From assembly GCA_003551785.1 (NCBI GenBank), contig PUNP01000751.1:1-13594 (forward strand): a DNA stretch of 13,594 bases, in the 5' to 3' direction. A model generated the notes under the pieces. That model made no database searches. It saw nothing but the letters and a program-made list of their open reading frames with translations, and was not told the DNA's origin. Shown piece by piece: positions 186 through 13,594 of this stretch. The position numbers were made by a program, and so were the translations under genes. Position 1 is the stretch's first letter, and each line of letters starts with the position of its first letter. This DNA is from Candidatus Brocadiaceae bacterium. Lineage in GTDB: Bacteria > Planctomycetota > Brocadiia > SM23-32.

Positions 186-2312
186 ATGCCCACCCTTAAA
201 GATTTAGATCTCAAACTATCATATCGATCAGGCCGGGATAATCTTGTCAACGACTTTTTCCTGCCATGCCTTGGAAGATCTGTAAGCTACAAAAGAGCAG
301 CAGGATACTTTACAAGTGCTGGGCTGGCCTTAGCTGCCCGGGGCATCGCAGGTCTCGCCTCCCGTAATGGTGAAATGCGGCTCATAGCTTCACCCTATAT
401 GGAACCAGATGATGTTGAGGCCTTGCAGAAGGCTTACGATAATCCTGAAAGCATCCTTAAAGCAATTGCCTGGAAAAACCTACATGATATTGAAGACACA
501 ATCTTCAGGGATAGGTTGAATGCTCTCGCCTGGTTAGCTGCCTCAGGATTGCTACAGGTCAAGCTGGCTATAAGAGTTAATAGTGAAGGCGAGGTGATCA
601 GGGGGATCTTTCACGAAAAGACAGGTCTGTTCTCAGATTATGATAATAATCAAGTGGCCTTTGCAGGCTCATCCAATGAAACTACTGGTGGTTTTGTCGA
701 AAATTTTGAAAGCATAAAGGTATTTTGCTCATGGCGAGACAGTGAAGGTCGGGTGAAAGAGGAGTTGGAAAACTTTGATGATCTGTGGAACGACAATACC
801 CCAGGGCTGAAAATTATCGAGTTTAGCCAAGCCACAGCGGAGCTTGTTGATCAATTCCGTGATCCTTCAAAACCCCTTGAAGGTCTAAAAATCAAAGATT
901 TCTGTCAAACCAAAATAAACTGTTATGGCAAAGTTTCCTCGCCAAAATGGATGCAATTACGCGATTATCAGGTCGAAGCTATCCGAGCTTGGGTAAAAGC
1001 CGGTGGAAAGGGCATTTTTTCCATGGCTACAGGAACTGGAAAGACTTTGACAGCACTTGCCTTGGCAGCTAAGGTCGCTGAAAAAAATTATCCTTTAGCT
1101 ATAATCATTGTCTGCCCCTACATAAGCATTTGCCGCCAGTGGATTGGTGAAGCAGCCTTGTTTGGTGCAAAAGCTATCCCTTGCTTTGAAGGACAAAGAA
1201 AATGGCAGTCATTGCTAGAAGAGTCTTATCAGCAATTGAGCAGTGGGCTAAAACAGGTTTCTGTGTTTGTAGCTACAAACTCCACGTTCAAAAGCAAGGC
1301 CTTTCAATCAAGTATATCCAACAAGCTCACATATAGCGGAATTCATCACCTAATAATTGCTGATGAGGTACATAATTTGGGCTCCCCCAAAATGAGCAAG
1401 TCTTTGCCCGATGGCATTGCTATGAGGTTAGGACTATCAGCAACCCCAGAGCGGCACAATGATCCAGAGGGCACCGCTGCACTAATCAACTATTTTGGGG
1501 ATGACATATTTTCCTATCCATTATCCAAGGCTGTTGCTGATGGGCATTTAACCCCATATTTATACTACCCTATTATCGTTAAATTGAATTATGATGAAGC
1601 TGAGTCATACTTGGAGATTACCAGTAGCCTAGCCAGATTAATGTCAGGTAACGACAAAGAAGGTGAGCTAAACGATGCAGCCATGCATCTTTTAATAAAG
1701 CGATCCAGGCTGCTCGGATCAGCAACAAATAAGATTACTGCACTTGAACAGTTGATTGGAAAAATGATTGATAAACCTAAAAAGGCAATATTTTATTGTG
1801 GGGACGGCAAAACTCTTGATCCAAATTCAGATGAGGATATGCGTCAAATCAAAGCAGTAGCAAGGGTTTTAGGCGAACAATGTGGTTTGCGGGTCAGAAA
1901 TTTTACATATATGGAGAGTTCAGAAGAGAGGAATGGAATTCTTCAAGATCTAAGATCTGGTTTTTTGGATGGTGTGGTTGCTATCCGCTGCTTAGATGAA
2001 GGGATTGATCTTCCTGATCTTGACATGGGTTTTATATTAGCGAGTTCAACCAATCCCAGGCAATTTATTCAAAGAAGAGGTCGTTTGCTACGTAAAGCTC
2101 CTGGAAAGAAGCGATCTGTAATTTATGACTTTATTGTACAACCACCTGATTTTGGCGGAGAGGATGATGACAAGGCATTTAACGTGGAACGCCTGCTCTT
2201 CAAAAGAGAATTAAAAAGGATATCGGAATTTTGCAGTATGGCTGAAAATGGCCCAGAAGCACTACAATCTTTACGTGAACTAAGAATAAAATATAACTTG
2301 GTTGCGGAGTAA
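186..2312 (+). CDS. PLD-nuclease-like / SF2 (DEAD/DEAH-type) helicase, first gene of the putative PT-linked restriction operon
   Basis: This is a two-part protein of 708 aa if started at ATG 186. Residues about 1-200 resemble a phospholipase D-like nuclease domain: an HEK element (H143, K145) is followed by a GSSNET element (161-166), the usual second half of a PLD active site. The SF2 helicase core follows: motif I ATGTGKT (281-287), motif II DEVH (393-396), motif III SATPER (418-423) and motif VI QFIQRRGRLLR (626-636), so both RecA-like lobes look intact. It probably translocates on or unwinds DNA with ATP and may cut it. The in-frame TTG at 99 and ATG at 156 would add 29 or 10 residues. 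I prefer 186 because the conserved-looking LKDLDLKLSYRSGRDN segment begins there and a GGA lies 7 nt upstream; the start is uncertain. The next gene follows after 2 nt. Similar helicases occur near dnd genes, so a restriction role is inferred. Confidence 0.85.
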   Translation: MPTLKDLDLKLSYRSGRDNLVNDFFLPCLGRSVSYKRAAGYFTSAGLALAARGIAGLASRNGEMRLIASPYMEPDDVEALQKAYDNPESILKAIAWKNLHDIEDTIFRDRLNALAWLAASGLLQVKLAIRVNSEGEVIRGIFHEKTGLFSDYDNNQVAFAGSSNETTGGFVENFESIKVFCSWRDSEGRVKEELENFDDLWNDNTPGLKIIEFSQATAELVDQFRDPSKPLEGLKIKDFCQTKINCYGKVSSPKWMQLRDYQVEAIRAWVKAGGKGIFSMATGTGKTLTALALAAKVAEKNYPLAIIIVCPYISICRQWIGEAALFGAKAIPCFEGQRKWQSLLEESYQQLSSGLKQVSVFVATNSTFKSKAFQSSISNKLTYSGIHHLIIADEVHNLGSPKMSKSLPDGIAMRLGLSATPERHNDPEGTAALINYFGDDIFSYPLSKAVADGHLTPYLYYPIIVKLNYDEAESYLEITSSLARLMSGNDKEGELNDAAMHLLIKRSRLLGSATNKITALEQLIGKMIDKPKKAIFYCGDGKTLDPNSDEDMRQIKAVARVLGEQCGLRVRNFTYMESSEERNGILQDLRSGFLDGVVAIRCLDEGIDLPDLDMGFILASSTNPRQFIQRRGRLLRKAPGKKRSVIYDFIVQPPDFGGEDDDKAFNVERLLFKRELKRISEFCSMAENGPEALQSLRELRIKYNLVAE

Positions 2313-2314
2313 AA

Positions 2315-2578
2315 ATGTCAGATAATCAAGAACTTTTGAAAAAACTTAAAGAGCTAGAAGAAGAAAACAAACTTCTAAAGCAAAGGCAATCTAGCAATTC
2401 CAATGTTAAGGTAGTTGAAGGGGATTACAAAGGACGTCCCACACTTACATTTTACGGTCCATTCAAGCCTTTTACACTGGGAATTAGAAAACTTCAGACA
2501 ATTAAAGAGTCTTGGCCTGAAGTGGAAAAGTTTTTGAATCGTCATAACGCAAATGATAATAATGAAATAAAAATATAG
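2315..2578 (+). CDS. Small coiled-coil protein with basic beta/alpha C-terminal domain
   Basis: An 87-aa protein with no confident family assignment. Residues about 4-24 form a strongly charged heptad-like helix (LLKKLKELEEENKLLKQ), likely a coiled coil for dimerisation. Residues about 30-80 read as two strands (KVVEGDYKG, PTLTFYGPF), a basic turn (KPFTLGIRKLQ) and a helix (ESWPEVEKFLNRH). That order loosely resembles PC4-like single-stranded-DNA-binding proteins; this is a hypothesis from pattern only. ATG lies 2 nt after the helicase stop, with GGAG at 2306-2309 inside the end of the helicase gene, so translation is probably coupled. It could be an adaptor or DNA-binding subunit for the helicase or the downstream ATPase. 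Confidence 0.75.
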   Translation: MSDNQELLKKLKELEEENKLLKQRQSSNSNVKVVEGDYKGRPTLTFYGPFKPFTLGIRKLQTIKESWPEVEKFLNRHNANDNNEIKI

Positions 2579-2619
2579 AATGTAAAAATTATTTTGTTTT
2601 TTCTAGGAGATATGTGGTA

Positions 2620-2805
2620 ATGAGTGAAGAACCAATGAAAGTGCAGGCTGAAGAAAAAGCCAAGACAATTTTTCAAAATGCCAAGCCTGAATATCAGGTG
2701 TTGATTCGAGCAATCCTGTCTGAAGAACGTAAAGTAATGCACCTTCAGCGTAGAAATGATATACATCAAAGGATTTACGATCATGTCAGGCGGATTATCA
2801 AATGA
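2620..2805 (+). CDS. Small helical protein of unknown function
   Basis: A 61-aa, charged, mostly helical protein (KAKTIFQNAKPEYQVLIRAI, then RRNDIHQRIYDHVRRIIK) with no signal peptide or membrane segment. ATG 2620 is preferred over GTG 2614 because AGGAGA (2605-2610) sits 9 nt before the ATG but only 3 nt before the GTG. Its stop overlaps the start of the SMC-like ATPase in an ATGA (2802-2805), a strong sign of translational coupling. That suggests a small partner made in step with the ATPase, in the way DndE accompanies DndD; the analogy is positional, and no sequence similarity to DndE is evident. I do not recognise the family. Confidence 0.7.
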   Translation: MSEEPMKVQAEEKAKTIFQNAKPEYQVLIRAILSEERKVMHLQRRNDIHQRIYDHVRRIIK

Positions 2806-4907
2806 AATTAGAGCGGCTCGTTATTGAAAATTTCAGACAATTTAAGGGCAGGCAAGAAATCATTTTTTCTGACCTTAGTGAAAGGAATGTCACTTTAGTT
2901 CACGCAGAAAATGGTTTTGGTAAAACTACACTTCTCAAGGCTTTGCTCTGGGGGCTATATGGAAGAAATGGTCTTATGGGGAACGATGGAAGCCCTGATG
3001 ACTTTGAAAAGCCTGATTCAATAATTCACGAAGGTCTTGCTTTTGGAGCACAAGATCCAGATTCTGTTGCAGCAAGTGTTGAAATCACCTTTAAGCACCA
3101 ATCAACAAGATACATCCTGACCAGAAGGTTGACCCTTTCCCAGCAAAACATTAGCTCTAAGCAAGCTGATTTATCTCTGGAAGAGATGAAGGATGGTCAA
3201 ACCTACAAAGTAGAAAGACCACAGAATAGAATTGAATCGATTATTCCTGAAGGGATAAGCCGGTTTTTGTTTTTTAATGGTGAAAGAATTAATTACTTAG
3301 CAATGGAAAAAAATAGATCTCATGTGACTGAAGCAATCCAGCAAATGCTTGGATTGAAGCTTTTACAGACCACCATTGAAGACCTAAAACACGCAAATGT
3401 TCGAGGAAAATTTCGATCAGAGCAAAAAAATGCTGTTACTGAAGAAAAAAGGATTTTTATTGAGCGCTTGAGCAATAAAGAATCAGAAATAGAAGATTTT
3501 CAAAGCCAAAAACAACAAGCCTTAAATAACCTCGAAGCAATACGCAAAGAGATTGATCTCGTGAATATGAAGCTCGCAAAAAACAGAAAAGCAAAAGAGC
3601 TTCAGACCAAGAGGGTCAAACTGACACAAGAAATAGATCAGCTTGTTAGCCGCAGGAATGAAGTCGAGAAAAAGCTAAAAAAAATCATTTCAGACGAGGG
3701 GTTTACTTTTTTTTCTGCAGAACTGCTAAACAAAGGAAAAGATATTGTCAATAAACTACGGACGGAAGGAAAAATTCCTGCCAGAGTGCTAAATTCCTTT
3801 CTCAATGAATTGTTAGCTTCGGAAAAATGTATATGTCAGCGCAGCTTACCAAAAGATAGTCCTGAGAGAAGAGCTGTTGAACAACTAATGACTATAGCTG
3901 GTGATCAAGATTTTAACAACGCTGTTGGTGCGCTTGACCATGCCCTGGGACACATTGAGGCGATATCCTTACAAGCTTCTAATAATTTGAACGAACTTCA
4001 AAAAGAACGTTTGCAAGTGATATATAATATTCGCGAAAGGGATGAAGAGATTGAAAAAATTCATCAGGAGCTAGGTGCAAAAAAGGATGAAGAAGTCCAA
4101 AGCCTGGAGGACAAAAGAAAAGAACTATATATTGATAATGATACCTTGCAAAATAAACTTGGTAGTGTCGAAAATAATATTGATAGAGCAATAGAGGAAG
4201 CTGAGTCTTTAAAGGTTCAGATTCGTCAAATTGAAGATAAGGAAGATGCAGCAGCCTTAGCACAAAAGCGTATAGATGCCGTTGAAGACTGTATCAAACT
4301 CCTTGCAGACATTCTTGAGGCTGAGACACAAAATATTCGACCGTTGCTTAATGATGAGATAAACAAGTTGTTTAGAAAAATAATGACTAAAGATTACTGG
4401 GCAGAGCTTACAGATGAATATACACTCAAGATTAGGAAGAAAATTGCCGGTGAGATATCTGATCCTAATGGCCAAAAAATAGATGCAGCACTGAGTACTG
4501 GAGAAAGAACTGTGACTTCACTCGTGTTTATCGCTAGTTTAGTAGCCTTAGCAAAAAAAAGATCAGAGATACCAACTATACTCAAAGGATTGTCAGGTTC
4601 TGTCTACCCAGTTGCTATCGACTCCCCATTTGGTTCTTTAAGTATTTTTAGACCAGGTGTTGCCCGTTACATCCCTGAGCTCGCTCCTCAGGTTTTACTT
4701 TTGGTAAGCCAAGAGCAGTATAACGGTGCAGTTGAGTCTGCTCTTACAGATTCCATTCGAGTTGGGAAACGATATTACTTGGTTTATCATGGACCAACCA
4801 TGCCCGACCAGGCAAGCCCTGAACTTGTAGTTCATGATGAAAAGATTCAACAGTATTTTCCTTCTCAAACTGAAGAATATACAGAAATTAAAGAATTAAA
4901 GGTTTAA
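2802..4907 (+). CDS. SMC/Rad50-like ATPase of the DndD-related type, with Cys-X-Cys in the coiled coil
   Basis: A 701-aa ABC-type ATPase with split ATPase halves. The N-terminal half opens with LERLVIENFRQFKG and has a Walker A AENGFGKTT (35-43) in which the usual first glycine is alanine. FLFFNGERI (155-163) matches the DndD hallmark FFFDGEQI seen in the dndD of this same window. Charged coiled coils run from about 190 to 510, broken by CIC (C343, C345) in ASEKCICQRSLP, at the place where Rad50 proteins carry a Cys-X-X-Cys zinc hook. The C-terminal half has an LSTGE signature (564-568) and a Walker B region VAIDSPFG (604-611). It likely acts on DNA as a dimer, driving conformational change with ATP. 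It is the second DndD-like ATPase of the locus and sits in the putative restriction operon. Database annotation could name it 'DndD' or simply AAA family ATPase. Confidence 0.85.
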   Translation: MKLERLVIENFRQFKGRQEIIFSDLSERNVTLVHAENGFGKTTLLKALLWGLYGRNGLMGNDGSPDDFEKPDSIIHEGLAFGAQDPDSVAASVEITFKHQSTRYILTRRLTLSQQNISSKQADLSLEEMKDGQTYKVERPQNRIESIIPEGISRFLFFNGERINYLAMEKNRSHVTEAIQQMLGLKLLQTTIEDLKHANVRGKFRSEQKNAVTEEKRIFIERLSNKESEIEDFQSQKQQALNNLEAIRKEIDLVNMKLAKNRKAKELQTKRVKLTQEIDQLVSRRNEVEKKLKKIISDEGFTFFSAELLNKGKDIVNKLRTEGKIPARVLNSFLNELLASEKCICQRSLPKDSPERRAVEQLMTIAGDQDFNNAVGALDHALGHIEAISLQASNNLNELQKERLQVIYNIRERDEEIEKIHQELGAKKDEEVQSLEDKRKELYIDNDTLQNKLGSVENNIDRAIEEAESLKVQIRQIEDKEDAAALAQKRIDAVEDCIKLLADILEAETQNIRPLLNDEINKLFRKIMTKDYWAELTDEYTLKIRKKIAGEISDPNGQKIDAALSTGERTVTSLVFIASLVALAKKRSEIPTILKGLSGSVYPVAIDSPFGSLSIFRPGVARYIPELAPQVLLLVSQEQYNGAVESALTDSIRVGKRYYLVYHGPTMPDQASPELVVHDEKIQQYFPSQTEEYTEIKELKV

Positions 4908-4918
4908 GTGGGTTAGAA

Positions 4919-5359
4919 ATGAAAAGAATACAGCGAGCGAAGGACAAAGAAGAAATAATTGCCCTTTTGATGGATGAAAGGTTGGGCGTTTTCAAAGAAA
5001 TTTGGAAGCTACTTCTTTTTGCTGCTTTTGTTGGTCTAAAAAATGGGAAGAAGGAGTCATTGAAGTCATCAGATCCTGGGAAAGGAATAGATCAAAGTAC
5101 CTTTGGCAATTCACCAGTTTGGCCAGGGCTACTTTATTTGATTGCGCTGGTTGAGTCCCAAAGCTCGGATTCATTGTCAGGAAGCTCAACTGTAGATGAT
5201 GAAAGAGTACAATTATTTCAAGAATATGTGAATGGTGGGTTAAGTATTCTACAAGATTTTTTTTCAGAAAATAATGCAGATTTGGATGGTTTGCTGGCTT
5301 TTATTGATATCCAAAAGGGTGAAAGTGCTGGAGAACCAGATTTAAATTTGATGATATAA
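4919..5359 (+). CDS. DNA phosphorothioation-associated protein 4-like (dnd_assoc_4-like)
   Basis: A 146-aa soluble protein. It starts MKRIQRAKDKEEIIALL, followed by a helix-rich core (VFKEIWKLLLFAAFVGLKNG) and a C-terminal ERVQLFQEYVNGGLSIL. The run 'vf..A..vG.k.gk' followed by 'F.eYaNGGLeiL' matches my memory of the small family annotated as DNA phosphorothioation-associated protein 4, found beside dnd genes. Its biochemical role is unknown to me. The variable middle (about 40-60) is poorly conserved-looking. It lies 11 nt after the ATPase stop with only a weak SD (GGGTTAG) and 23 nt before the DUF262 gene. This is the best sequence-level link tying the plus-strand operon to phosphorothioation, rather than to an unrelated defence system that merely lies next to it. 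Confidence 0.7.
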   Translation: MKRIQRAKDKEEIIALLMDERLGVFKEIWKLLLFAAFVGLKNGKKESLKSSDPGKGIDQSTFGNSPVWPGLLYLIALVESQSSDSLSGSSTVDDERVQLFQEYVNGGLSILQDFFSENNADLDGLLAFIDIQKGESAGEPDLNLMI

Positions 5360-5382
5360 CAGATGATATTGTCGGAGAAAAA

Positions 5383-7752
5383 ATGACACAAAGAGAAGCG
5401 ACTTCAAACGTGCCACTTAAAATTCTGCTTCCACGAATTAGCACTGGCGATCTCTTAATACCTAACTTTCAAAGAGAATTTGTATGGGACCCTGATCAAT
5501 GGATATCCTTATTCGCTTCGATTATGCTAGATTATCCCATTGGCTTCTTGCTGATAGGAAATAAAGTGGCTGTAAATAAAATGAATTTCTTAAAACCATT
5601 TTCAAGAACAGAAAAAGAAATGAAAGCCGTCTATAAGTTGTTTGCATCTATAAGCGAAGAAAAAATTTCAACAGAATACCTAATGTATGCAAAGGATGAT
5701 GTTAAAAGAGACATACTATTAGATGGACAACAGAGGATAACATCATTAGATTTGATCTTTAGTCAATATTTCGACAAACTCGGTGCTGAATTGTATTATG
5801 GAAAAAGATTTAGATTTTTTTTAGATCTATCATTGTTTGATATTCATGAGATTGGCAATAAAGACTCTAACTATTTTAAAGAAAAATTCAGATATTTGGG
5901 TGATGAGCTTTCACACCAGCAAGTTAAAGAATGTATATACACTCTTCCTTATACTAAGTCTAAAAAAACAGAATATCACATTGAAAAATCTGACCGAGAT
6001 TTAGCTTCTTTTTGCGTAAAGCAGTCACACAATATTTCAGGTTTTGAATTTTTAAGCGACTCTGACACTGTTCTATACCCTGTTGATATGTTATTTACTA
6101 TATCTTCAATAAGAGATGAAAAAGCTTTGGAAATTAATAGAGAGTTTTGGAAAGCATTATTTCAAAATAATAAAAGCAATATAATTGAAAAAACTAAGTA
6201 CTACAAAAATAAGGCTAAATCAAACGAAGATGTTGAAACAATTAAAGCAAATCTTGATGAATATTATGATGAATGGCTTGATGATCTAAAAGAATATTTT
6301 ACGCAAAAGGTTTTAAACTATGAGATACCTATATATAATGTTGAAACAGAGAATTTTCACCGTTTAGCAGGCATTTTTTCAGTAATAAATATTTCAGGAA
6401 CACAGTTGTCGACCTTTGAACTTTTATTAGCTCGAACAGCAACTAAGGATTCTAATTTAAAGCAGATATTTATGGAAGAATTGCAATGTTTTTATAATGA
6501 AATCCAAGAAGATTGTTTCAAGAATGTCGTGCCAGATAGCTCAAGAGACCAATTTGAGAAATACTTTTCTATCCATGATTTTCTTGGTGAAAAAACACAA
6601 GATGACGATAAGTTCCCAGAAAAAATTTCTACTCAATTTGCACAAGTTATCAGTTTAATGACCATTTTGTCTGATATAACTGAAGAGAAAGACCTTAGCA
6701 AGTCAGTTGATGCTTATAATGTGGCTCGCGATATCCTTAAGTTATCTGGCTGGGGTTTTGGAGAGAAACATATCCTTTCCTTAGAACCTACCAAAGTGCA
6801 TAGTGTCCAAAGACAAGCAGCAAAGCAGTTGCTCCGCTCTTATTATTATATGAAGACAACTTTAGGAATTAGGAGACTTTCTGACCTACCCTATCGGCAG
6901 TTAGACTTGGTTCTAACATGTATTTTTAGTGATAAAATCTGGGATGAATTTAAAAAAGGTAGGAACCAACAAGCTGCATGGTTGAAAAAAATTGAGAAGT
7001 GGTTTTGGTCATCATTATTTGGAGGTGCCTATCAATTTAATCAAGATCGAAGGGTGGTTAGGGATATTCCCAGACTCCTGATATATGTCAATAATCCGGA
7101 CGAAAAATGGCCTACACATTTAGTGTCCAAAGATAATTTTGAAATAACAGATAAGGATTATAGCTCATACTCAGAAGATATTACAAATCGTTTTACTTCT
7201 TGTTTTAATAAAGAAGGGTATTCAACCTTTGAATCGTTTTTTGAAGGACACAACAAAGCATTAGAGAGATCACTTATAGCTTTCATACTTAAAGATGAGC
7301 CTGTTGATTTTTTTTACAAGGATAAAAATGGCATCGAAATAAATCAAAGATTAAACTCAAACATGCCTAACTTGGAGGTTGATCATATAATATCTATCAA
7401 GGATTGGAATATCTGGATTGATAAAGTGTCAAATAACGATGAAAATCTTGTGAAAGTTAACAGTCGTAATCAGAACCATCAAATTAATTCTCCTTTAAAT
7501 AAAACAGTTATTTCTGCTAATGCGAATCAGTATTGGCAATCTCAAAAGCTATATGAAAAATGTCAACTAGAAAATCTCAATAGTGAAGCCTCTGTAAAAG
7601 AAAAATTGGAATCTCACTGTATAGATCCTTATTCTTTGATAAATGTTTTAGATAGAGATAAATTAATAAACATTTCAGGTAACATTGAAGCTTTTTTGAG
7701 GAATCGTTTTGAAAAAATTAGAACTAAATTAAATAATATAATTGAATCCTGA
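5383..7752 (+). CDS. DUF262 (GmrS/ParB-like) protein with C-terminal HNH/DUF1524-like nuclease domain
   Basis: A 789-aa protein. The N-terminus is a DUF262 domain: IPNFQREFVWDPDQWISL near residues 26-43, then YPIGFLLIG, and the signature LLDGQQRITSL with D114-G-Q-Q-R118, the nucleotide-binding motif of GmrS- and SspE-type enzymes. A long helical middle follows. Near the C-terminus VDHIIS (D667-H668) is followed by ENLVKVNSRNQNHQIN (687-702), an HNH-like/DUF1524 arrangement with N696 and H699 as candidate active-site residues. Known relatives (GmrSD, SspE) use NTP binding by DUF262 to control DNA cleavage, and SspE acts against phage in a PT-dependent way. Here it is the last gene of the operon, with GGAG (5374-5377) 5 nt before ATG. 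It is visibly AT-richer than dndC (25% GC in 6181-6240 versus 53% in 10801-10860), which suggests separate origin. Target specificity cannot be read from sequence. Confidence 0.85.
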   Translation: MTQREATSNVPLKILLPRISTGDLLIPNFQREFVWDPDQWISLFASIMLDYPIGFLLIGNKVAVNKMNFLKPFSRTEKEMKAVYKLFASISEEKISTEYLMYAKDDVKRDILLDGQQRITSLDLIFSQYFDKLGAELYYGKRFRFFLDLSLFDIHEIGNKDSNYFKEKFRYLGDELSHQQVKECIYTLPYTKSKKTEYHIEKSDRDLASFCVKQSHNISGFEFLSDSDTVLYPVDMLFTISSIRDEKALEINREFWKALFQNNKSNIIEKTKYYKNKAKSNEDVETIKANLDEYYDEWLDDLKEYFTQKVLNYEIPIYNVETENFHRLAGIFSVINISGTQLSTFELLLARTATKDSNLKQIFMEELQCFYNEIQEDCFKNVVPDSSRDQFEKYFSIHDFLGEKTQDDDKFPEKISTQFAQVISLMTILSDITEEKDLSKSVDAYNVARDILKLSGWGFGEKHILSLEPTKVHSVQRQAAKQLLRSYYYMKTTLGIRRLSDLPYRQLDLVLTCIFSDKIWDEFKKGRNQQAAWLKKIEKWFWSSLFGGAYQFNQDRRVVRDIPRLLIYVNNPDEKWPTHLVSKDNFEITDKDYSSYSEDITNRFTSCFNKEGYSTFESFFEGHNKALERSLIAFILKDEPVDFFYKDKNGIEINQRLNSNMPNLEVDHIISIKDWNIWIDKVSNNDENLVKVNSRNQNHQINSPLNKTVISANANQYWQSQKLYEKCQLENLNSEASVKEKLESHCIDPYSLINVLDRDKLINISGNIEAFLRNRFEKIRTKLNNIIES

Positions 7753-7964
7753 AAGATATCAAAAAACAAATGTGCCTTTAAATTTTAGCCAATTAAGACT
7801 ATTAATACCAGCCAAAAAGATTGGTTTTCATATACTCGCAAAAATTTGATTCTGTCGGGCCTGCGCCAGAAAATTTTCAGCTGTTCTTCAAAAAAGATCG
7901 TAACACGAATTATTGACCGTTAACCTTGATTTGGCAAAAAACGACTTTTGGCAGGCGTATCTAT
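7753..7964. other. Convergent intergenic gap, no clear terminator
   Basis: Two hundred bases between the stop of the DUF262 gene and the stop of dndE, which run toward each other. I see no gene and no strong GC-rich hairpin with a T-tract on either strand. The only hairpin-like elements are weak: CCAA-N5-TTGG followed by TTTT at 7812-7828, and the palindrome GAAAATTTTC. Transcription may read through into the opposing operon or depend on Rho. Confidence 0.5.
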
Positions 7965-8315
7965 TTATGTCATTTTTATCCTGGATATTGCTATGATACC
8001 TCTTTCGAGGTGTGTTCTAAAATAGTTGCCCATCATCTCTTTATTATTATGGTCAACACCATCAATCTTTGCCCGATACTTGACCAGAGCAGAAAGTTCA
8101 TCTTGATATGGACCGGCAAAGGTTTTCCAATCCATTTCAATATTGCTGTCTGGCATTTTTTCTCTTGGTGCGGGCGGGGCAGGGTTTGCAAGAGAAGCGC
8201 ACAGGGCAATCCGACATACCTCATTCCACTGCTCAAGCCCGATGTTTCTCTTAACTTTAATTAAGGTGTCCTTCCCTTTGGTACTGACTTTCACTGTTGT
8301 AACTGGGGGCTTCAT
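7965..8315 (-). CDS. dndE: DNA phosphorothioation protein DndE
   Basis: A 116-aa protein at the expected size for DndE, the small basic subunit that binds DNA (reported to prefer nicked duplex) and works with DndC and DndD in sulfur incorporation. Features fitting the family are an N-terminal basic strand region (VSTKGKDTLIKVKRNIGLEQW), a CRIALCASL helix and the C-terminal NYFRTHLERGI segment, where DndE proteins carry a conserved His/Arg-Gly. ATG 8315 is preferred: a strong GGAGGG (8332-8327) lies 11 nt upstream. A TTG at 8336 would lie upstream of that SD. It is the last gene of the operon, in a different frame from dndD, whose final 59 nt it overlaps. Context makes the assignment firm. Confidence 0.88.
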   Translation of the reverse strand: MKPPVTTVKVSTKGKDTLIKVKRNIGLEQWNEVCRIALCASLANPAPPAPREKMPDSNIEMDWKTFAGPYQDELSALVKYRAKIDGVDHNNKEMMGNYFRTHLERGIIAISRIKMT

Positions 8316-10287
8316 TGGAAAAGTATCCCTCCACAATTTTGGAAGCTTGGCGTTCTTTTTGGTGGTTGATTAAATAAGTTTTTGTTATGTAGGGCTCAAT
8401 ATCTTTGTAGTACTTCCCTATGATCTCTTCATCTGTTGAGAGTAAAATAACTTGATGCGAAGCTTCGGGGAAGTATTTTTGCGCCAAGTGGCCTCTGTGA
8501 GATGAATCTAACCGACCAAGTGGGGTATCAATAATGACAGGCATGGGATTTCCAGAAGCTCTAGCTAGTCCCCACAGGAGTGCGGTAGCCAGAAGTTGTT
8601 TTTCTCCAGCAGATAGACGTTCATGAGGCAAGTGACCATGATTATGTCCCTTGAGGGCTATAGTAAAGTTTTCTGGTTCGATTTGAATAGCAGTGACAAG
8701 GTTTTCTTTGTGTAGCAACTGGTTAAACGAGCTCAACATTAGGTTTTCAATTTTTCTTGCATGCATCCTAACAATTTTTTTTCTGAATTTAATTAAGGTA
8801 TCCCTAACTTTTTCAGAATGTTTTAATATTCTCATGCCGCTATCTTGTTGAGCGTATTGCTCAATATTTCGATTCATTAGTCCATTTATTTGACCTTGCA
8901 ATATTTTCCCTTGATCGATAAGAGCTTTTTTTCTGATCTGTAAAGACTCCAACTCTGACTTTTTAATTTCATGCTCTTTTCTTGCTTTGCTGAGCTTATC
9001 TTCAATTAATCTTACATTTTCTTCACTTGGAACTAAAATAAGCTCACCTTCAATACTTGATATTTTTTCTTCAATTATAGAGATATCTTTTTTCAAAGTG
9101 TTAGCTTGCTGTTCAGCCGCAGGGATGGCTTCTTTGTTGAGATAGGAGAGCTTGTATTTCAAGTCGTCTTCAGCATCTAAAATAATTTCTTCTGATGCTA
9201 GAGCGGACTTTTCGATTCTGTCTTTTTCTAGCACCTTGTTAATTAAATCAATTACAGTGCCGTCAATATTGTGTGAACTAAGTTCTCTGAAGAGGTTCTG
9301 GTCTCTTTTGAGCAGCTCATCTGTTAAAATTTTTGCTTTTTTTACCTGAGTTTCATGTCTTGCCTGTTTCTCAACAAGGCTTAGTAAACCCTTTATTTTA
9401 GCAAAGGGGAGAGGGCCTGATAAAAGCTCACGATACTGCTTTTCAAGGTTTTCCTTTTCTAGCTTGAGGCGCTCAAGCTTTACTAACAGATCGTTATACC
9501 TGTAGAATAGTTCTCCTCCTTCAGCTTTGAATTGCTCGTTAATCTCTTCCAGGAGTTTGGCTGAACGACCTGCGTTATTAACAAGTTCACCCTCCTTCAT
9601 TGATAGATTTTCCAGGAGCTTGTCCAACTCTTCAAGTTCTTTATTTTTTTGATTTATAACTATTGTTGTCTTTTGATCTAATCTTTCATTTTTTTTACGT
9701 TTTTCCAGTACTTTCAAATCTGTTTCCAGGCGTTCAACTAAGTTTAAGCCTAATAATGTATGCAATGCAGTGCCTATAATTTCTGCAGTGTTGTTACCTT
9801 CAGCTAATTTTTTAATTTGTTCGCCATCAAAAAAGAACAAATGTGCCATTCCTTTAGGCATGTATGTTTCAATTATTGTGTCCCAGTGGTTAGTATGGAG
9901 TTCGTCATACTCTCCATCAATTAGAACTCTGAACACCTCTTCTAACCCTTTAACGCCTTCACGCCAAAGTCTTTGCAATTCAAACGAACGAGTACAACCG
10001 TCTACAAATTTGCGAAAGCGTAAAATTATGCTGCTGCCTTCACTTGGATCACTGTTACGGTTTATAGATTCTCTCAGGTATTGTTTGTAGCCACGTTTAC
10101 CCCTGCTGGAAGTATTTGCCTTTGAACCATACAAAGCCAGTTGAATGGCATCTAAAAGTGTAGTCTTTCCTCCACCGTTCATTCCTCCAAAAAGGATGAT
10201 GGGCTTACCCTTTTCCGGGGTCAGCAGCACTTCTGTTCTGCCTTGATATACACCGAAGTTTTCAATGCTAACGGAGTCAAAGATCAT
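8257..10287 (-). CDS. dndD: DNA phosphorothioation ATPase DndD (SMC/Rad50-like)
   Basis: A 676-aa ABC-type ATPase with the normal DndD layout and length. It has IENFGVYQG near the start, Walker A GGMNGGGKTT (34-43), the hallmark FFFDGEQIKKL (151-161), coiled coils from about 180 to 510, an ABC signature LSAGEKQ (558-564) and Walker B VIIDTPLGRLD (583-593). DndD hydrolyses ATP and is thought to open or remodel DNA so that the DndC-DndE machinery can exchange oxygen for sulfur. It has a single cysteine (C98) and so no zinc-hook-like element, unlike the related ATPase at 2802-4907. Its start codon overlaps the dndC stop in an ATGA (10287-10284), so the two are translationally coupled. The C-terminal tail after about residue 655 is coded in the stretch shared with dndE. 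Confidence 0.95.
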   Translation of the reverse strand: MIFDSVSIENFGVYQGRTEVLLTPEKGKPIILFGGMNGGGKTTLLDAIQLALYGSKANTSSRGKRGYKQYLRESINRNSDPSEGSSIILRFRKFVDGCTRSFELQRLWREGVKGLEEVFRVLIDGEYDELHTNHWDTIIETYMPKGMAHLFFFDGEQIKKLAEGNNTAEIIGTALHTLLGLNLVERLETDLKVLEKRKKNERLDQKTTIVINQKNKELEELDKLLENLSMKEGELVNNAGRSAKLLEEINEQFKAEGGELFYRYNDLLVKLERLKLEKENLEKQYRELLSGPLPFAKIKGLLSLVEKQARHETQVKKAKILTDELLKRDQNLFRELSSHNIDGTVIDLINKVLEKDRIEKSALASEEIILDAEDDLKYKLSYLNKEAIPAAEQQANTLKKDISIIEEKISSIEGELILVPSEENVRLIEDKLSKARKEHEIKKSELESLQIRKKALIDQGKILQGQINGLMNRNIEQYAQQDSGMRILKHSEKVRDTLIKFRKKIVRMHARKIENLMLSSFNQLLHKENLVTAIQIEPENFTIALKGHNHGHLPHERLSAGEKQLLATALLWGLARASGNPMPVIIDTPLGRLDSSHRGHLAQKYFPEASHQVILLSTDEEIIGKYYKDIEPYITKTYLINHQKERQASKIVEGYFSNEAPSYNSESQYQREGHLN

Positions 10288-11870
10288 TTGTTAACCCCCT
10301 TGTAAGTAGCATTCTCCATGAAAACTTCGCACATAAGAGCTTCTTTTTTTGCAAGGTTCAATTCGTTTTTTGTTTTTACAAGCTCTTCAGCCCTGTTAAC
10401 GGCATCCTCACGGTTATCATAAAAATGACGCTTAAAAGAATGTTCAAGCTGTTGATAAAGACCTGCTCTTCTGGCGCTGGTCCATCTTTTCTGGGTAATG
10501 CTTAATAATTCCCTGACTAGTTCGTAATGCAGTCTGTCATCTCCACATATTTCTGAAAGTTCCTGCATTGCATCATTGCCAAGCACAGAGTGATCGTTAA
10601 AAGAATTGCCAGGGTAATCATGACCTGTTGCTTGCTGATAAATTGCCGGGAGAACATCTTCAATTTCATGTTTGTCCACAACCCAGATTCTTCTTATTTC
10701 CTCTAATTCTTCCAAGGTTATGAGCTCAATATTTTGAGCATGCTCAGGGCCATTTTTACGGATGTATTCCTGGGCCTTCAAAAGAAGATGCAGGATATGT
10801 GTCCTTGTGGACTGCAGATATGGTCCGGGAACTTCCTTGCCGCTGGACATGATCTGGATTTGGCCGCTCATACGTCGAAAGTCTCTGAGGCTTCTGTCTG
10901 CATTTTCTGAATGTTCACCCTTTTCATTGGTCCGGAAGTCTAAGTAATTTCTTATTTGCAGCAGGGGGAGCATCCATTCTTTTTCTTCATCATTGCGGAT
11001 CATGGCACTCATGGACTTATCCTGTTCCACAAGAGTACAAACCCAGCATCCGAACCTGGAGCTTCCGCAGCTTGGGGTGGATTCATCAATTACCAGAGGG
11101 CATTCCCCGTCTTCTGTTGCGCCGGCATACATGCCCAAAAGATCTCGGTTGGTGTGATTCCAGGGGTTTTTGGTCTGCATGAGGTAAAACCAGACATCGT
11201 CATTGGTCCAGTCCTCAATGGGGGTATATACCAGAGAGCCTGGAAGACCGGCATTGGGACTTAATCTGTCTCGAATTCGGCCTTGTTCATGCTTGGTCAT
11301 GCTGGCGGCACGACTGGAGCTTTCAGCCTTTCTGGTTCCCAGGACAAGAATGGCCTCACCACTGGATGATACTACACTGTTAATAAAATTGTTGGAGGGC
11401 AGAATTTTTAAGCGATGGGTGCACCATCTGAATTTGTGCCTGGGAGCTGGGTATCCTTTGCCGATGAGATTTACCCAGAATCTGTCTTGAAGCTCAGGGT
11501 AGAGCCGTTTTGGAATGAAGGGCAGTTGTTGATCCTGTGCAGCCTTGCTCATGGATTGTATGGACCTAGTTACCCAAAAGGAAACTACAGGATTTTCAAC
11601 CATGGTATCTGTGGTAATGACATAGATTATTTTTTGTCTTTTTTCCACAGAGAGCTTGCTAATGGCGTTCCAGACAAGTTGAAGTGCTGCTGTAGAATCT
11701 TTGCCCCCAGAGTAACCAATGATCCATGGAACATTATCTAAACAGTAAAGCTCTTGAATTTCGCTTTCCAAGTATTCAATGGCCCAATTAAAACCATGTT
11801 TTTTAAAAGCTGAATTGCTTTCAAAACCCGTTTCAGCATGTGTACATCTTACTTCTACTTGTGTGCTCAT
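10284..11870 (-). CDS. dndC: DNA phosphorothioation sulfurtransferase DndC
   Basis: A 528-aa member of the PAPS-reductase/ATP-pyrophosphatase family. The PP-loop SGGKDST lies at 54-60. Cysteines typical of DndC follow: C150 in FRWCTHRLK, C257, and C268, C275 and C278 in PSCGSSRFGCWVC. DndC carries a 4Fe-4S cluster, and four of these are the likely ligands; which four is inference. It activates the phosphate by adenylation and relays sulfur delivered from DndA. The N-terminal two thirds are the conserved core, and the C-terminal 150 residues are helical and variable. It sits between dndB (TGATG, 1-nt overlap) and dndD (ATGA overlap), all in one transcript. The middle of the gene is clearly GC-richer than the plus-strand operon. 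No sign of damage. Confidence 0.96.
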   Translation of the reverse strand: MSTQVEVRCTHAETGFESNSAFKKHGFNWAIEYLESEIQELYCLDNVPWIIGYSGGKDSTAALQLVWNAISKLSVEKRQKIIYVITTDTMVENPVVSFWVTRSIQSMSKAAQDQQLPFIPKRLYPELQDRFWVNLIGKGYPAPRHKFRWCTHRLKILPSNNFINSVVSSSGEAILVLGTRKAESSSRAASMTKHEQGRIRDRLSPNAGLPGSLVYTPIEDWTNDDVWFYLMQTKNPWNHTNRDLLGMYAGATEDGECPLVIDESTPSCGSSRFGCWVCTLVEQDKSMSAMIRNDEEKEWMLPLLQIRNYLDFRTNEKGEHSENADRSLRDFRRMSGQIQIMSSGKEVPGPYLQSTRTHILHLLLKAQEYIRKNGPEHAQNIELITLEELEEIRRIWVVDKHEIEDVLPAIYQQATGHDYPGNSFNDHSVLGNDAMQELSEICGDDRLHYELVRELLSITQKRWTSARRAGLYQQLEHSFKRHFYDNREDAVNRAEELVKTKNELNLAKKEALMCEVFMENATYKGVNK

Positions 11871-12964
11871 CAGATTATGCCCTTTTCAGTCTTTTTTTCG
11901 TGTGCCGACTCAATTTTTTTCTGCTCATCAGTTAAAGGTAGGTGAAGAGTTTTTTTGATTAGATTGGTAGCCAATACAACATTTGTGGTAGCCTTAGATA
12001 CTTTTCCTCCAATCAAAGCCCTGCCTTCCCAAATGCTTGCATTTGATCTTGACCAGTCAATACTTTTTAGCTTTTCTAATTTATGAGCCCAATCATTGGG
12101 GTGATTTTTAATCAGAGTGTTGCCAGCTTTTCCCAAGGCCTGCAAAATGATGCCGTGGGTATGCAAATAACTTTCCCTTACTTCACTAGCCGAAAGATGA
12201 CCTTCTTTTACCTGAATCCATGTTGGGAAATGCTTGGCTACTTCCTCCCAAAAGCTCCTAGCCAGATCAGCATCATCCTCCAAATTCCCACTGGCCATAC
12301 CGTTAATCAAGTCTGCACAGGCATTATAAAAAGCTGAAAGGGTAAAAAGCTTGCGCGACCTCCTTGCCAGGGAAGACCGTTCCATATCTACAATATCTCT
12401 AAATATCTCTGATTTAATAATCACTAACTTGGCCAACTTGGCCTTGTCATTTCGATGGTCGTATAACAGCCCTAAAGATCGGCTAGGCCTGACTGAATGA
12501 CGGTTTAAATCTGAAAACATCTGTTGACAGCGCTCTAGACCAACATCTAAAAAAAATACAACAGCTATTGTTTCATAGCCTAATTCAGGCCTATGCTCTA
12601 AAGCATCGATTATTGCTTGGCGGCGATGTTGGCCGTCGTTGATTATAAATTTTGCTTCCATGGGGACTTTCAGCATGCCGAGCTTGTCCTGTCCAGGCAA
12701 TGGTTCAAAGGACACTTCGGAATCTATGGACACCGTCAAGGCTGAAAAAACATAGTCGTTGCTATTGTCTAGTATATAATTCGAAATCTCTGGCAGGCGC
12801 GCCTTGTTAAGAGTACGTTGAGCCCTAAGTGCTGGAGGAAGCCCGTCCTCATCAAAAATGGATATCTGTTTTAGCATGCGCATGGTCCACATAGCCACAT
12901 AGTACTCTCGTTTAGCCTGAACTCCACGAATTACAGGAAAAGTAATGCTTGGCTCAATCTCCAT
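11870..12964 (-). CDS. dndB: DNA phosphorothioation accessory/regulatory protein DndB (DGQHR family)
   Basis: A 364-aa protein of the DGQHR family, with FIINDGQHRRQAI carrying D110-G-Q-H-R114, a ParB/DndB-like nucleotide-binding motif. The rest (AVVFFLDVGLERCQQMFSDL, then a SLGLLYDHRND segment) follows the DndB pattern. DndB is not essential for modification in systems studied but affects its frequency and sites, and in Salmonella it was reported to repress the dnd operon from its promoter. It is the first gene of the operon. A GAGGGG at 12975-12970 lies 5 nt before ATG 12964. Its stop shares one base with the dndC start. The inverted repeat in the promoter region immediately upstream would be an obvious target if DndB regulates here too, which is inference. 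Confidence 0.95.
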   Translation of the reverse strand: MEIEPSITFPVIRGVQAKREYYVAMWTMRMLKQISIFDEDGLPPALRAQRTLNKARLPEISNYILDNSNDYVFSALTVSIDSEVSFEPLPGQDKLGMLKVPMEAKFIINDGQHRRQAIIDALEHRPELGYETIAVVFFLDVGLERCQQMFSDLNRHSVRPSRSLGLLYDHRNDKAKLAKLVIIKSEIFRDIVDMERSSLARRSRKLFTLSAFYNACADLINGMASGNLEDDADLARSFWEEVAKHFPTWIQVKEGHLSASEVRESYLHTHGIILQALGKAGNTLIKNHPNDWAHKLEKLKSIDWSRSNASIWEGRALIGGKVSKATTNVVLATNLIKKTLHLPLTDEQKKIESAHEKKTEKGII

Positions 12965-13101: not shown

Positions 13102-13594
13102 ATGAATCCTGTTTATTTAGACTGTAACGCTACCACGCCTATTGACCCAGAGGTAAAGGATTTTTTTTGGCAATTCATTGATGAGGAATTTGGCAACGAG
13201 GGGAGCAGGACACATCGATATGGGATGGTCGCTAATCAGGCTGTTCAAAAATCAAGAGAGCAAATTGCCAAGGTGGTAAAATCTTCCAGGGATGAAGTCA
13301 TTTTTACCGGTGGAGCGACTGAAAGCAATAATATCAGCATCCTGGGGCTTCAGGAATTTGGTGAAAAAACTGGCAAAAAACATATTATAACTTCTGAAGT
13401 GGAGCACAAATCTGTGCTTGAGCCTTGCCAGGTTATGCACAAGAAAGGCTTTGAGTTATCACTTTTGCCGGTTGAAAAAGATGGTTATATCGACCCTGAA
13501 AATGTGAAAGCAGCACTTCGTGACGATACCCTGTTAGTTTCAGTGATGCAGGTTAACAACGAGACCGGCTTGCGCCAACCCATTGAATATATTG
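13102..13594 (+). CDS. dndA: Cysteine desulfurase DndA (5' part, cut by the window edge)
   Basis: The first 164 codons of a PLP-dependent cysteine desulfurase of the NifS/IscS class, open to the window edge. Visible family motifs are VYLDCNATTPIDP at the start, GNEGSRTHRYG, FTGGATESNN (which contacts PLP), TSEVEHKSVLEPC with the conserved histidine, and QVNNETG. The PLP lysine and the catalytic cysteine lie beyond the window. The enzyme takes sulfur from L-cysteine and passes it to DndC. The assignment as DndA rather than IscS rests on context and the 'LDCNATTP' and 'SRTH' forms of the motifs. Divergent placement upstream of dndBCDE is the same as in Streptomyces lividans. ATG 13102 has AAAGG 7 nt upstream. 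Confidence 0.9.
   Translation, partial: MNPVYLDCNATTPIDPEVKDFFWQFIDEEFGNEGSRTHRYGMVANQAVQKSREQIAKVVKSSRDEVIFTGGATESNNISILGLQEFGEKTGKKHIITSEVEHKSVLEPCQVMHKKGFELSLLPVEKDGYIDPENVKAALRDDTLLVSVMQVNNETGLRQPIEYI

Follow-up and report, generated by a model that had tools for sequence, protein, structure and literature searches.

Which restriction genes accompany a DNA phosphorothioate (PT) modification system when dndFGH is not found beside it? We asked this of a 13,594-nucleotide (nt) stretch from a Candidatus Brocadiaceae bacterium (here called the window), in which dndBCDE faces six open reading frames (ORFs) on the other strand. A preliminary description had taken the six genes to be a distinct new restriction module, with the caveat that they might match PbeABCD. 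We found that the caveat was justified. Judged from their sequences, genes 1, 3, 4 and 5 are the described PbeABCD module, a PT partner, and a new six-gene effector is ruled out. Gene 6 encodes a protein with an N-terminal DUF262 domain and a C-terminal HNH-like region. We think it fairly likely that the locus is a PT defense system with two restriction arms, PbeABCD and gene 6, the latter being a separate and optional second effector.

Four of the six genes match PbeABCD

The six genes (positions 186-7752) are convergent with dndEDCB in the ORF map. They are spaced as an operon, with successive gaps of 2, 35, -4 (an ATGA overlap), 11 and 23 nt; this tight coupling had been described correctly. 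The features of the window are as follows (aa, amino acids).

186..2312, + strand: PbeA (gene 1), PLD-like (HKD) region and SF2 helicase, 708 aa; PADLOC PbeA, 773 bits
2315..2578, + strand: gene 2, small ORF, 87 aa, beginning 2 nt past pbeA
2614..2805, + strand: PbeB (gene 3), 63 aa from GTG 2614 (ATG 2620 possible); called by position and weak alignment
2802..4907, + strand: PbeC (gene 4), CxC-type ABC ATPase of the DndD/CxC clade, 701 aa; PADLOC PbeC, 466 bits
4919..5359, + strand: PbeD (gene 5), dnd_assoc_4, 146 aa; TIGR04062, 115 bits (cut-off 74.25)
5383..7752, + strand: gene 6, DUF262/GmrSD_N and C-terminal HNH-like region, 789 aa; DndI/SspE/BrxU-like candidate effector
7965..8336, - strand: DndE; TIGR03184, 88.6 bits (cut-off 71.85), match beginning at residue 15
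8257..10287, - strand: DndD; TIGR03185, 562.3 bits (cut-off 245.85)
10284..11870, - strand: DndC, PT sulfurtransferase; TIGR03183, 663.7 bits (cut-off 290.4)
11870..12964, - strand: DndB; TIGR03233, 482.9 bits (cut-off 328), DGQHR at 110
13102..13593, + strand: DndA cysteine desulfurase, partial, 164 aa, truncated by the window end; TIGR03235, 230.3 bits over residues 5-163

Published descriptions of PbeABCD fit genes 1, 3, 4 and 5. Xiong et al. describe PbeA with PLD, ResIII and helicase C domains, a PbeB of 66 aa, a PbeC with AAA_23 and a PbeD of 152 aa, and report that loss of each pbe gene weakens protection beside dndCDEA, pbeA being needed only partly (PMC6459918). Rakesh et al. treat the same set as a CxC ABC-ATPase system, in which PbeA, PbeB, PbeC and PbeD are an HKD-SF2 protein, a small protein, the CxC ATPase and a DndE cognate (PMC10853773).

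In addition to its PADLOC match, PbeA scored 593.7 bits against TIGR04095 (dnd_restrict_1), narrowly under the cut-off of 600. Its ResIII and Helicase_C matches pass the Pfam cut-offs; PLDc_2 scored 22.6 bits, below its cut-off of 27. The motifs expected of both regions are present: H143-E-K (HxK), GSSN at 161-164 (GSxN), GTGKT at 283 and DEVH at 393. An earlier start, TTG 99, is possible. Relatives of PbeA, among the best 120 of 3040, include one from Geotalea uraniireducens at 63% and two others at 78-80%.

PbeB was placed largely by position. Its ORF overlaps the start of pbeC by 4 nt (ATGA), and small ORFs at the same place in six other loci overlap pbeC by 1-11 nt. Identity to these six is weak (14-25%: 18-25% to four, 14-15% to two). 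PbeD was equated with dnd_assoc_4 from annotated loci and the mapping in PMC10853773 rather than by alignment to the original PbeD.

PbeC required more care. A PADLOC PbeC model outscores the DndD models on the genuine DndD of the window (8257-10287; 684 vs 662 bits), so the label PbeC may be wrongly given to DndD and these models are not decisive alone. Gene 4 scored 159.6 bits against the NCBIfam DndD model TIGR03185, under the cut-off of 245.85, and hence is not DndD itself. It also has a CxC hook (C343-I-C345), along with AAA_23 in Pfam and LSTGE at 564. The DndD of the window is opposite on both counts, passing the cut-off and having no CxC motif. We call gene 4 PbeC on these two grounds.

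The PT modification genes adjoin the module, with dndEDCB and the partial dndA in the window. DndB, DndC, DndD and DndE each pass their NCBIfam cut-offs, which bears out the earlier statement that dndBCDE is complete. The partial DndA has the DndA model as its best family and is below the cut-off of 480, as expected for a fragment of 164 aa. DndE probably starts later than TTG 8336. The usual partners also appear to have been rightly called missing: no DndF, DndG or DndH family was among the matches listed for the 10 window proteins scanned (NCBIfam, PADLOC). The 3' ends of gene 6 and dndE are separated by 212 nt. None of the 14 terminator-like sites of the window is in this interval (7753-7964), which has only weak inverted repeats.

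The 87-aa ORF (gene 2) is the weakest of the six gene calls and is probably a real, lineage-specific gene. At this composition, 87 codons free of stops would arise by chance with a frequency of about 0.001. One database relative was found among four candidates scored, with 95% identity and equal length. There was no NCBIfam or PADLOC family for it, and the Pfam and PHROGs matches were sub-threshold or weak. The gaps between pbeA and pbeB in two other loci (L002 and L004) have no ORF of similar size.

Gene 6 resembles BrxU, DndI and SspE

Gene 6 matched the Pfam GmrSD_N/DUF262 model (E 1e-21). HNH and GmrSD_C models had no match in the Pfam scan, so the HNH-like call rests on conserved residues and fold. 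The parts list given earlier (a helicase, two small proteins, a DndD-like ATPase, a dnd_assoc_4 protein and a DUF262 protein) held up, and its HNH nuclease now stands on residues and fold instead of a Pfam model. The family conserves an N-terminal DGQQR and a C-terminal D-H..N..N.

In a Foldseek comparison, the top three chains from the Protein Data Bank were BrxU, BrxU and DndI. In a second look, the first six rows were all BrxU, DndI and SspE. A profile built from five gene-6 proteins had BrxU as its sole match at E<=1 and did not detect the DndI chain 9JFL. Residue F29 of gene 6 falls at the P-x-[YF]-Q place of the PT-sensing patch of DndI (Y25), matched by motif and not by structure. An SspE model was not among the PADLOC matches to gene 6; whether PADLOC contains one was left unchecked.

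Gene 6 is rare and is found with dnd genes

We scored 7995 candidates in a protein search with gene 6, and 36 proteins matched at E<=1e-3. These were the window's own protein and four close relatives (29-33% identity over 82-97% of the query); a weaker group of four, P0007, P0008, P0012 and P0030 (22-24% identity over 89-98%, E 1e-15 to 3e-4); five that span 46-59% of gene 6; and 22 with coverage of 13-29% or less, in essence the DUF262 stretch at the N terminus. A first scan of genomes, with gene 6 as sole query, gave no matches. A pattern scan of genome contigs recovered three gene-6 loci, from a Prochloraceae metagenome-assembled genome (P0003 of the protein search), Nostoc sp. 106C and Spirulina sp. 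CCY15215. Among 386 cyanobacterial genomes, three matched at E<=1e-15: Nostoc (the source of the query), G343 (full-length) and G079 (weaker). The proteins of Nostoc, Spirulina and G343 are absent from the list given by the protein search, which makes the figures on rarity lower bounds. In total, there are at least seven near-full-length close relatives, from searches that were non-exhaustive. Thirteen viral contigs matched gene 6, only across query residues 6-142 (the DUF262 stretch), and none of seven matching plasmid records reached 80% coverage.

We examined the five gene-6 loci that could be read: the window, L001, L002, L003 and L042 (the contexts of P0004, P0005 and P0006 are not included). 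Two are on draft contigs, and L001 stops within dndC. All five have dndC and a DndB-family gene. In L001 and L003, dndC directly follows gene 6; in L002 and L042, the two are separated by a divergent DndB-family gene; and in the window gene 6 and dndE are tail to tail. PbeD is present in four of the five and adjoins gene 6 in the window, L002 and L042. PbeA and PbeC are alongside in two (the window and Nostoc) and elsewhere in the other three. The expected co-occurrence with dnd genes was therefore found in every readable locus, and a shared order with PbeA and PbeC was not kept in three of them.

All four of the other gene-6 genomes encode PbeA, PbeC and PbeD somewhere; in G343, PbeC is ~760 kb from gene 6. 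PbeA is over the family cut-off in all four, vs none of 14 control genomes. The top-scoring PbeA frame in each of the four is a helicase of 494-504 aa without PLD, and G003 has an additional PbeA frame of 730 aa.

Most Pbe loci do not have gene 6. We found dnd_assoc_4 in 95 of the 386 cyanobacterial genomes (94 above the cut-off) and in none of the 14 controls. The 97 rows were mapped to 93 loci, after four partial, broken or sub-cut-off rows were dropped. At least 50 of these loci have PbeC, at least 58 have DndC and at least 2 have gene 6, one being the Nostoc source of the query; several stretches end at contig ends, so these counts are lower bounds. Gene 6 is an optional addition: it is so far found only in dnd/Pbe genomes, yet nearly all such genomes are without it. 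The proposal of one complete six-gene restriction machine does not fit these counts or the separation of PbeA and PbeC from gene 6. Nor did a narrow DUF262 motif scan support DUF262 as a general Pbe partner. It ran over 137 loci and its results are given for 103, the other 34 (L005, L006, L010-L041) being short pieces nearly all within later stretches. Outside the gene-6 loci it found DUF262 ORFs in L045, an Ssp locus, and L134, which has dnd_assoc_4 only, ~7 kb away.

Other Pbe and Ssp loci

Several further arrangements were seen. In 33 of the 93 dnd_assoc_4 loci, neither PbeC nor DndC was in the fetched stretch, some of these being short contigs; cyanobacterial PbeD possibly has a solitary role. 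The L045 locus (G079:C1:2912000-2931000) has the weaker gene-6 relative amid genes for SspA, SspB, SspC and SspD, another PT system. It also encodes an SF2 helicase that resembles PbeA and has no PLD, a HATPase protein and one protein that matches ZacB and DrmC weakly. On a plasmid of Rhizobium indigoferae (NZ_CP140639.1, 8844-19903), the order is PbeB-PbeC-PbeD-PbeA, and these genes adjoin SspB, SspC, SspD and a cysteine desulfurase, not dnd genes. Pbe may also pair with an Ssp-type PT system.

In plasmids of Ruegeria and Lactiplantibacillus, a protein of 1026-1080 aa with sigma-70 region 4 is encoded directly upstream of PbeA (L139:3611-6691 and L141:4219-7461). The one from Ruegeria resembles MzaA across ~90 residues. 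It is possible that this protein is a Pbe accessory. Among the large genes next to pbeA in these two, a Pfam scan found sigma-70 region 4 and no DUF262. A fusion of DUF262 with a sigma-like helix-turn-helix (P0020) was considered as a link to the sigma-70 genes and rejected, because notable similarity was found only around the helix-turn-helix.

A proposed model with two restriction arms

In the reading that we favor, DndABCDE would put PT marks onto host DNA, and invading DNA that lacks PT would be blocked by PbeABCD as the first arm. PbeC and PbeD would scan DNA as a pair of ABC ATPase and DndE-like protein, PbeB would either restrain the complex or hold it together, and PbeA would supply the helicase and an intact-looking PLD nuclease motif. 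In gene 6, the ParB-like DUF262 NTPase at the N terminus would sense the state of DNA, most likely PT marks, and would thereby gate the C-terminal HNH nickase, as do DndI beside DndFGH and SspE beside SspFGH. DndI, a DUF262 and HNH protein, restricts phages with dndBCDE; PT stimulates its ATPase, and when PT is missing the protein is toxic (PMC11662687). SspE and SspFGH are additive on one PT mark (PMC8092258). The placement of gene 6 as a second effector beside PbeABCD is drawn by analogy with these. It builds on what we observed: the identities of the genes and their motifs, a resemblance in fold, the arrangement of the operon and the repeated linkage to dnd. If the analogy holds, gene 6 would depend on PT, nick DNA and act independently of PbeABCD. 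The distance of PbeA and PbeC from gene 6 in three of the five loci argues for autonomy.

Three alternatives were weighed against this reading. The strongest, which we nevertheless regard as unlikely, makes gene 6 a type IV enzyme like BrxU. It would cut base-modified phage DNA, complement Pbe as BrxU complements bacteriophage exclusion (BREX), and be blind to PT. BrxU accompanies BREX and cuts base-modified DNA, and we know of no link between it and PT. By profile and fold, BrxU is the closer match; the closest solved relative of gene 6 is not DndI or SspE, so PT sensing by gene 6 is something that we only infer. However, a PT-blind enzyme would not need the linkage to dndC and a DndB-family gene seen in all five loci, and DndI and SspE share the domain order of gene 6 (PMC11662687).

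A more doubtful alternative is that the six genes are a single machine, in which the Pbe complex takes its nuclease subunit from gene 6. The tight co-directional operon of the window, the recurrent adjacency of PbeD and gene 6, and the presence of PbeA, PbeC and PbeD in all four other gene-6 genomes speak for it. An outside nuclease would also be useful where the best PbeA has no PLD, as in those four genomes (the longer frame in G003 notwithstanding). In contrast, gene 6 is in only 2 of the 93 dnd_assoc_4 loci, PbeA and PbeC are elsewhere in three of five gene-6 loci, and PbeA of the window has a PLD motif of its own. In addition, pbeABCD with dndCDEA, and with no gene 6 reported in the available part of the paper, protects its archaeal host (PMC6459918). 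Last, and very improbable, gene 6 could be a passenger, an unrelated defense or toxin gene that landed between two operons; it has few relatives and, at codon position 1, a G+C below that of the other five + strand genes (0.40; others 0.47-0.56), but like neighbors recur in cyanobacterial loci at merely about one-third identity.

An extension of the two-arm model is tentative, and we would not expect it to hold in full. Gene 6 would found a new clade of PT-reading DUF262-HNH nickases dedicated to DndBC/Pbe genomes, in a two-layer defense: the Pbe ATPase would stall unmarked DNA, and the nickase, which would hydrolyze ATP at PT sites and so be kept from host DNA, would cut the stalled DNA. If true, this would help account for the lack of DNA cleavage by PbeABCD alone.

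Views differ on whether PbeABCD destroys DNA. The mechanism inferred by Xiong et al. is something other than direct cleavage (PMC6459918), whereas Rakesh et al. expect cleavage (PMC10853773). A natural locus with both PbeABCD and a DUF262-HNH-like gene offers a direct test of this question, because either arm can be deleted by itself. The Pbe module and the DUF262-HNH effectors of PT systems are already known. Gene 6 as a Pbe partner is seemingly undescribed: no description of the pairing, or of the gene-6 family, was found in the titles and abstract openings of the papers listed, and the terms 'DUF262', 'GmrSD' and 'DndI' do not occur in the main text of Rakesh et al., which mentions HNH nucleases of another architecture (PMC10853773).

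Comparison with known systems

The window shares with PbeABCD as described (Xiong 2019, PMC6459918; Rakesh 2024, PMC10853773) its gene content, A-B-C-D order, domains and dnd linkage. The described module, in the available text, has four genes; the window has two more, gene 6 downstream of pbeD and the 87-aa ORF in the interval from pbeA to pbeB. With respect to gene 6, three effectors are the relevant comparisons. BrxU, a type IV enzyme of the GmrSD family, is the closest by profile and fold. SspE belongs to SspABCD, whereas the modification genes of the window are Dnd, not Ssp; this difference leaves the proposed functional likeness untouched. DndI of IscS-DndBCDE-DndI (Tang 2024, PMC11662687) also has the N-terminal DUF262 with DGQQR. 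It has 596 residues vs 789 in gene 6, a sequence relation to the DndI chain was not detected, Y stands at the PT-sensing place where gene 6 has F, and DndI is found with dndFGH, gene 6 with pbeABCD. By analogy, gene 6 is best read as the counterpart of DndI beside DndFGH, an optional addition that gives PbeABCD loci a second effector. This would extend to Pbe the pattern of DndFGH with DndI and SspFGH with SspE, in which one PT mark serves two effectors.
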